From contig JAJYKX010000005.1 of assembly GCA_021788175.1 (NCBI GenBank), positions 1 through 33,786 on the forward strand: a stretch of 33,786 nt of DNA. Direction: 5' to 3'. The DNA is from Chloroflexota bacterium. GTDB taxonomy: Bacteria; Chloroflexota; Limnocylindria; Limnocylindrales; CSP1-4. The translations under genes were made by a program, and so were the position numbers. The first letter of the stretch is position 1. Each line of letters starts with the position of its first letter. Below the pieces are notes generated by a model that saw only the letters and a program-made list of their open reading frames with translations, did not search any database and was not told the origin of the DNA. Below, piece by piece: positions 13,868 through 15,746 of this stretch.

Positions 13868-14509
13868 TCAGAGCTCGCCGCGCTCCGCCATCCGGGCCAC
13901 GCGCAGCAGGCCGACCAGGGACTTCGCGTCCTCGATCTCGCCCCGCTCGGCCGCCGCCACGGCCTCGCGCCAGGGGCGCCGCACCAGGCGGAGGTGCTCG
14001 TCCGGCTCCGGCCCCGTGGAGTCGTCGTCCGGCGACAGGTCCTGCGCCAGGTACAGGTGCATGTGCTCGTCGGTGAACCCGGGCGCCGTCCAGAACGCCC
14101 CCAGGTCGCGCCAGCGGGCGGCCCGCATCCCGGTCTCCTCGGACAGTTCGCGGGCGGCGCAGATGGCCGGGTCCTCGAGGCTGCCGTCCGCGAGCGTGTC
14201 GATCGTCCCCGCCGGGATCTCGAGCAGCGCCCCGCCGGTGGCGTGCCGCCACTGCCGGACCATCAGCACGTCGTCGCCGTCCAGCGCCACGATCGCCACG
14301 GCACCGGGGTGGAGCACCAGCTCGCGCTCGCGCTCCACGCCGTCCGCGTGGCGGATGGTGTCCACCCGGAAGGTCAGGTAGCGGCCGCGGTACACCACGC
14401 GCTCCGATACCGGGGTCTCCTGCAGCCAGCCGTCCCCGGCGGGTTCGCCGGGCAGTCCACCCCCGCCCGTCGTCGGCGGAGGGGATCCAAGGCGCCGTCC
14501 GTCCGTCAT
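13868..14509 (-). CDS. NUDIX hydrolase (ADP-ribose pyrophosphatase-like)
   Basis: NUDIX box: GSLEDPAICAARELSEETGMRA. Confidence 0.9.
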   Translation of the reverse strand: MTDGRRLGSPPPTTGGGGLPGEPAGDGWLQETPVSERVVYRGRYLTFRVDTIRHADGVERERELVLHPGAVAIVALDGDDVLMVRQWRHATGGALLEIPAGTIDTLADGSLEDPAICAARELSEETGMRAARWRDLGAFWTAPGFTDEHMHLYLAQDLSPDDDSTGPEPDEHLRLVRRPWREAVAAAERGEIEDAKSLVGLLRVARMAERGEL

Positions 14510-14516
14510 GGGCCCG

Positions 14517-14523
14517 TAGTATA
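14517..14523. promoter_or_regulatory. Symmetric -10 element TAGTATA shared by the divergent NUDIX and PHP genes
   Basis: Plus: TAGTAT at 14517-14522, exactly -12..-7 from GTG 14529. Minus: TATACT at 14523->14518, ending 8 nt before ATG 14509. Confidence 0.6.
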
Positions 14524-14528
14524 GGTTC

Positions 14529-15746
14529 GTGACCCACCACAGCCCCGGAGCCCTCCACATCCACTCGGTCTTCAGCGACGGGACCGGCACGCTCGAAGAG
14601 ATCGCCCGCGACGCCCGGCGGGCCGGGCTCGAATGGATCGGGATGACCGACCACAACACCCTCGCCCCCACGTACCGTGGCTTCGAGGGGATCCACGGCG
14701 GCGTCGTCGTCATCGTCGGCTACGAGTGGACGCCGGACGACGGCGACCACATGCTCGTCTACGGCGAGGCGGCGGCGCTCGGCACGGAGCCGCTCGATCC
14801 GACCCTCGCCCCGGCCGAGGCGATCGGGATCCTCGGGAACCGCGGTGCCCTGACCCACATCGCCCATCCCGACGAGCGCCGCGGCGTGGCGATGCCGTCG
14901 CTCCCGCCCTATCCCTGGCACGACTGGCAGGTGCGCGGGATGCGCGGGATCGAGCTCTGGAACTTCATGAGCGAATGGGCGGAGCGACTGACGCCGCGCA
15001 ACCGGCTGCTCCACGCGCTGCTCCCCGGGACCGGACTGCGCGGTCCTTCCGACCGCGTGCTGCGCTGGTGGGACGACCTGAATCGGCCGGTGGCCGGCGC
15101 GCCATTCCCGGTGGCGCACGGCGGACGAGTGGGAGCCGCGGAAGCCCCGGCCGATTCGCCCGCCGACTGGCCCGCCGATGCCCCGGCCGATTCGCGCGCC
15201 GATGCCGTCCCCGGCCCGGGCGGATCGGACGAACCGCGCTTCGCCGGCGGCGCCCGGCTCACCGTCGGCGTGAGCGGGACGGATGCCCACGCGTTCCGGG
15301 TCCGCGCGTTCGGCCGGACGTGGACGATCTTCCCGTACCTCCAGGTGTTCCGGGCGTTCACCAATTACCTGCTGCTCGACGAGCCGCTCCCCGCGGACCT
15401 GGAGCCGGCCCGGTCCGCGATCCTGCGGGCGATCGGGGAGGGGCGCCTCTACTTCGCCAACCGCCGGCTGGGAGACGCGCTCGGGCTCGAGTTCACCGCG
15501 GGGGATTCCGGGGGCCGGCACGTCGGTTCGGGCGGCTGGCTGCCGTGGAAGTCCGGCGGCGCGCAGGTGCGCGCGGCGAGCCCACTCCCGGCGTCGCTCC
15601 GGATCCTCCGGGACGGCGAGGAGATCGCGCGGACCCACGGCCGGACACTCGCCGCGGACGCCCCGGGCCCGGGGTCGTACCGGGTCGAGGCCTGGCGCTT
15701 CGGCGAGCCCTGGGCCTTCACCAACCCGATCGCGCTGCTGTCCTGA
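14529..15746 (+). CDS. PHP-domain metal-dependent phosphoesterase-like protein
   Basis: GALHIHSVFSDGTGTLEEIARDARRAGLEWIGMTDHNT PHP motifs. Confidence 0.88.
   Translation: MTHHSPGALHIHSVFSDGTGTLEEIARDARRAGLEWIGMTDHNTLAPTYRGFEGIHGGVVVIVGYEWTPDDGDHMLVYGEAAALGTEPLDPTLAPAEAIGILGNRGALTHIAHPDERRGVAMPSLPPYPWHDWQVRGMRGIELWNFMSEWAERLTPRNRLLHALLPGTGLRGPSDRVLRWWDDLNRPVAGAPFPVAHGGRVGAAEAPADSPADWPADAPADSRADAVPGPGGSDEPRFAGGARLTVGVSGTDAHAFRVRAFGRTWTIFPYLQVFRAFTNYLLLDEPLPADLEPARSAILRAIGEGRLYFANRRLGDALGLEFTAGDSGGRHVGSGGWLPWKSGGAQVRAASPLPASLRILRDGEEIARTHGRTLAADAPGPGSYRVEAWRFGEPWAFTNPIALLS
15144..15203 (+). repeat. In-frame 12-bp/36-bp repeats encoding APADSPADWPADAPADSRAD
   Basis: gccccggccgattcgcccgccgactggcccgccgat followed by a partial second copy. 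Confidence 0.85.

Follow-up and report, generated by a model that had tools for sequence, protein, structure and literature searches.

Organization of the NUDIX-PHP intergenic region

The window, that is the whole stretch of 33,786 nucleotides that was analysed, carries a NUDIX hydrolase gene and a PHP-domain metallohydrolase gene that diverge from a very short non-coding gap (Table 1) in the genome of an uncultured Chloroflexota bacterium, which has a GC content of 72%. The PHP protein is nearest to the CehA/McbA metallohydrolases (NCBIfam NF038032), its score of 79.6 bits lying just under the cutoff of 80, and the named relatives in which its gene also occurs are Chloroflexi MAGs, including GWC2_73_18. 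The first-pass annotation had placed the start codons, ATG 14509 on the minus strand and GTG 14529 on the plus strand, 19 bp apart, and had read the heptamer TAGTATA as TAGTAT on the plus and TATACT on the minus strand. Reading of the letters showed that every one of these coordinates was right and located the heptamer at 14517-14523. Within it the -10 hexamers of the opposite strands overlap with positions -7 and -11 coinciding reciprocally, which is the defining arrangement of a symmetric -10 element. An AGGAG-like Shine-Dalgarno word was not seen by reading on either strand of 14510-14528, and a sigma-70 promoter with a -35 element, sought at 14300-14750, was not found.

Table 1. Features of the NUDIX-PHP locus (window coordinates) and of other gene pairs with a TANNNTA core (locus identifiers).
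Feature	Position	Strand	Size	Remarks
Whole non-coding gap between NUDIX and PHP	14510-14528		19 bp	GGGCCCGTAGTATAGGTTC
NUDIX hydrolase gene	13868..14509	-	213 aa	PF00293, E 4.4e-14
NUDIX start codon ATG	14509-14507	-		reads CAT on plus at 14507-14509
PHP-domain metallohydrolase gene	14529..15746	+	405 aa	PF02811, E 6.3e-7
PHP start codon GTG	14529-14531	+		kept in 7/7 same-genus orthologs
Symmetric -10 core TAGTATA (TANNNTA)	14517..14523	both		same in 7 same-genus species, G006 and G022
Predicted PHP -10 hexamer TAGTAT	14517..14522	+		6 nt before GTG; canonical +1 = 14529
Predicted NUDIX -10 hexamer TATACT	14518..14523	-		8 nt before ATG; canonical +1 = 14511, or 14509
Zincin_1 / alpha-beta hydrolase loci	L136:1081-2549; orthologs L223-L252			G003, G005, G006, G011, G012, G017 and others
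Exonuclease VII large subunit / ATP-grasp				TANNNTA pair, Pfam both sides
Glycolate-oxidase-type FAD / Fe-S subunits				TANNNTA pair, Pfam both sides
Rhodanese / class-V aminotransferase				TANNNTA pair, Pfam both sides
EamA / inositol monophosphatase				TANNNTA pair, Pfam both sides
PNP_UDP_1 phosphorylase / PGA_cap, divergent	L141, L143-L148, L150 at about 1509			TATCCTA, starts 5 nt each side; other family of the order, eight genomes

Conservation of the gap and of the start codons

Seven species of the genus, the host and six others, have the NUDIX/PHP pair. Conservation in relatives, which had been proposed beforehand as a check on the locus, was indeed present: the gap measures 19 bp and both the ATG and the GTG are kept in 7/7 species, and GTAGTATAGGTTCGTG is identical in all of them. 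Invariant columns make up 17/19 of the gap as against 3/22 of the four-fold sites of the PHP gene; the corresponding binomial probability of 2.5e-13 is indicative, since there is some dependence among columns and among species. The first 45 nt of the NUDIX coding sequence are nearly unconserved (8 invariant columns in the seven species) and the NUDIX N-termini vary in length by whole codons, while the ATG stays fixed 8 nt from TATACT in the seven PHP-linked species and in G006 and G022. Such a pattern would be expected of a start codon held in place by the promoter.

The NUDIX frame is open on the minus strand up to an ATG at 14713, as it might be if the annotated starts were wrong and the gap were coding, or if the arrangement had come about by chance in a GC-rich genome. 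We regard this as scarcely credible, because both start codons and their spacing are constant in all PHP-linked species of the genus and because the gap is conserved far above four-fold sites. Since the distance to the motif is exact in seven species and the 5' coding sequence is poorly conserved with length changes in codon steps, ATG 14509 is supported as the NUDIX start; GTG 14529 is kept in the same seven species, and by sequence and comparison the start codons of the earlier annotation appear to be the real ones.

In another genus (G022, locus L037) the same core and both starts are kept, with a gap of 20 bp and the PHP GTG shifted by one base. G006, which belongs to the same genus as the host, has the NUDIX gene without PHP; there the GTG of a GAF-domain gene lies 8 nt from the same TAGTATA. 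This locus (L257, reverse complement of 1440-1480) looks like a swap of the PHP partner for a GAF-domain partner across the shared predicted promoter.

Leaderless promoters in the host genome and the fit of both hexamers

Genes were called in 0.965 Mb (34%) of the host genome from coding statistics alone, the -10 signal being left unused. For 73 of the 803 usable starts in this part, the first T of a TANNNT hexamer is found at one of the positions -12 through -15 (32, 24, 12 and 5, respectively), against an upstream background of 1.5 per position for the same starts. The corresponding peak in a 0.4-Mb stretch of the family member G012 comprised 22/327 starts. The logo of the host's leaderless promoters lacks a -35 element. 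On these sequence statistics, the host genome uses leaderless TANNNT promoters. Just 4 of 12 Chloroflexi had leaderless genes, at 4.0-5.7%, according to Zheng et al. (2011; PMC3160421).

Both hexamers of the gap fit this signal in their position. TAGTAT is found at -12 of the PHP gene, which is the modal leaderless position of the genome, and TATACT at -14 of the NUDIX gene, inside the peak. The proposal of the first-pass annotation that both genes have leaderless or near-leaderless starts is supported by sequence and comparison. In a ranking of the 64 TANNNT hexamers by their fit to the logo TATACT came third and TAGTAT 31st. As the NUDIX hexamer is near the genome's best and that of PHP is middling, unequal output with NUDIX as the stronger side would be expected.

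The predicted +1 sites, 14529 and 14511, are 18 bp apart by geometry. On the transcribed sense the base at 14511 is a C, which counts against this position as the canonical minus-strand start, and the A of the ATG (14509) is therefore an equally plausible +1, giving a spacing of 20 bp. Accordingly, the predicted leader of the NUDIX mRNA would be 0 or at most about 2 nt long. In the accessible parts of the papers on bidirectional promoters the same geometry is described, with -7T and -11A reciprocally paired and starts 18 bp apart, and 18 bp is the commonest spacing of start sites that share a -10 (PMC12825309; PMC10268837).

The unequal fit of the hexamers could also mean that TATACT serves the NUDIX gene alone, that PHP is transcribed from elsewhere, for instance from inside NUDIX, and that the mirror T and A are incidental. 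TAGTAT, besides its lower rank, occurs in 0/92 unrelated leaderless -10 elements, which speaks for such a one-way promoter and against a two-way reading. Yet every same-genus locus has retained the mirror A, which follows TANNNT in just 1 of the 92, and so have G022 and the partner-swapped G006. Moreover, the distance from the mirror hexamer to the GTG is always 6-8 nt, and by reading the GTG is not preceded by a Shine-Dalgarno sequence. A one-way promoter is on this evidence unlikely, and a core that is read in both directions is preferred.

Recurrence of the architecture at other gene pairs

The pattern CAY-N7-TANNNTA-N5-RTG is matched by the present locus alone in each PHP-bearing genome of the genus. 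Raw counts of this pattern were not enriched over those of the reversed control, since these genomes contain less TA than AT; what proved informative was the coding context in which each match lies. Of the sites in the family and class at which CAY and RTG flank TANNNTA, 14/25 are situated between two coding regions that diverge, or 8/19 when the present locus is counted once. The AT-core control ATNNNAT was so placed at 0/29 sites (Fisher, 2e-4). Counting against the two-way reading, the (5,5)-spaced pattern passed the coding test at just 5/25 sites. In about 1 Mb of the host genome 1 of 2 flanked TA-core sites, and 8 of about 1970 sites with other self-complementary cores, were between diverging coding regions. 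The fully read 34% of the host genome contained a single instance, so that the architecture is rare within any given genome, which likewise weighs against the two-way reading. For f2, the order-level sister family, the coding model with its training on 72% GC does not work, and the loci of f2 stand outside the 14/25 positives; their genes were confirmed on both sides by Pfam. Further pairs are given in Table 1.

A 10-bp divergent gap that separates two called genes of the host genome (CGGCTATAGT; L096:9345-9356, contig G000:C190) was rejected as a second case, because its TATAGTA abuts the ATG of the plus gene and a leaderless -10 fits the minus gene only. In a separate observation, TAGGTTCGTG, which lies between the end of the -10 and the GTG (window 14522-14531), was seen again at L119 and L140, both in G019; its recurrence at unrelated gene pairs of leaderless type hints that one discriminator sequence may be favoured.

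Outside the NUDIX/PHP locus the architecture is best illustrated by a Zincin_1 metallopeptidase gene that shares a TANNNTA core with an alpha-beta hydrolase gene in 17 genomes, which represent 15 genera. The hydrolase, which was confirmed by BLAST and shows 44-57% identity outside the genus, begins 5-8 nt from the core, and on the opposite side 6-9 nt separate the hexamer from the start of the peptidase. The core is always TAGGATA, TAGCATA or TACGATA. The scan for Zincin_1 orthologs required TANNNT alone, so that the seventh base, the mirror A, was free to vary. It is an A in 17/17 of the pairs and in 3/6 of the orthologs that have a leaderless-type -10 and no hydrolase in contact (Fisher, 0.011). 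Among the latter it is a C in L225, L227 and L242; L232, L241 and L246 keep the A despite the missing contact, which counts against the two-way reading. These counts share ancestry and are not independent events; the contrast is still strong. The host genome is outside this count, its gene being cut by a contig end (G000:C50). Two more genomes (L105, L137) with a shared Zincin_1/hydrolase core were picked up by pattern search.

The recurrence of the geometry bears on the possibility that the conserved block at the NUDIX/PHP locus is the operator of a dedicated regulator of these two genes, which would replace or overlie a -10. Within the genus the conserved stretch, GTAGTATAGGTTC, does reach past TANNNTA, and GTAGTATAGG is a rare 10-mer, occurring just twice in the 2.8-Mb host assembly, as an operator might. 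The block is, however, situated at the leaderless -10 position of the genome on both sides, the extra GGTTC is absent from G022, and at other gene pairs TANNNTA recurs in the same geometry although its inner bases differ (TAGGATA, TAGCATA, TACGATA, TATCCTA). An operator is therefore considered very improbable, more so than a one-way promoter.

A predicted leaderless bidirectional promoter core

Judged on sequence and comparison, TAGTATA is probably (about 0.8) a conserved leaderless bidirectional promoter core of the sigma-70 type; we infer both the transcription in two directions and the exact start sites. RNA polymerase with the housekeeping sigma factor would bind the heptamer either way round by means of the two overlapping TANNNT hexamers, and would initiate at the start codon, or about 2 nt from it, on whichever side, with start sites 18-20 bp apart. 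The resulting leaderless mRNAs would be translated without a Shine-Dalgarno sequence, and the upstream promoter contacts of each direction would fall within the coding sequence of the opposite gene. The start codons would be locked 19 bp apart because both mRNAs begin within about 2 nt of them.

That polymerase can occupy the core in one orientation at a time, as the first-pass annotation had argued, is sound by geometry and is stated for comparable promoters (PMC12825309). Its further claim that this forces mutually exclusive initiation is unsupported as it was put, since published E. coli promoters show no basal competition. At five bidirectional promoters of that organism basal firing is too rare for competition and loss of one direction left the other unaffected; one side is repressed when the opposite side is strongly activated (PMC12825309). 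Steric exclusion of two polymerases follows from the geometry and does not by itself establish regulatory mutual exclusion.

Both kinds of promoter, the bidirectional and the leaderless TANNNT type, are already known separately. The symmetric -10 promoters (Warman et al., 2021, via PMC10268837; Warman et al., 2026, PMC12825309), as far as the accessible parts of these sources go, likewise have one pseudo-symmetric -10, two polymerase orientations and steric exclusion; those parts do not describe the cases from E. coli and Salmonella as leaderless. Unlike these cases, at the present locus the start codons are the predicted start sites, the -10 centres the whole gap and more than one genus has kept the arrangement. 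Published leaderless promoters are similar in that TANNNT precedes the start codon by about 12 nt and that they have neither a -35 consensus nor a Shine-Dalgarno sequence (PMC3160421; PMC3898074; PMC12340547). They were treated gene by gene (Zheng et al., 2011; Cortes et al., 2013; Deinococcus 2025), and the words 'divergent' and 'bidirectional' are absent from the Deinococcus paper (PMC12340547). In Mycobacterium tuberculosis prpD and Rv1129c are also divergent with both mRNAs leaderless by TSS mapping, but a distance of 120 bp lies between their TSSs (1254630 and 1254510), which belong, unlike here, to two separate promoters (PMC3898074). The EcoRV restriction-modification system also has divergent promoters with overlapping polymerase sites; these are two separate promoters under the control of a dedicated C protein and are not described as one shared -10 (PMC5333194). 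A conserved promoter that is both leaderless and bidirectional, with start codons as start sites, was not found in the literature, taken over the available portions of the sources and with the examples of Warman et al. (2021) outside the search.

At this locus the promoter, the 5' ends and the start codons of two genes are condensed into about 25 bp. This compact layout turns the orthologs, in which the partner is kept, lost or swapped, into a natural mutation experiment that can be read from sequence, and it bears on the control and evolutionary retention of bidirectional promoters, which have themselves been recognised recently. It might even be that in this Chloroflexota lineage the arrangement is a distinct and selected gene-pair architecture, in which the 7-bp TANNNTA sets both start codons and 5' ends, holds the partners head-to-head over family-level divergence, allows a partner to be swapped and couples or balances expression by polymerase orientation. 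We put this forward tentatively and think it somewhat doubtful as a whole. For start calls in GC-rich leaderless genomes the pattern CAY-N5..8-TANNNTA-N5..8-RTG provides an annotation rule.

A different outcome was noticed at one Zincin_1 locus (L229 in G013, about 1430-1501). There the Zincin_1 start has apparently moved downstream, leaving a leader with a Shine-Dalgarno-like GAGGGAG, and TAGCATA is still near the hydrolase; the shared promoter possibly gives rise to one leadered and one leaderless mRNA.
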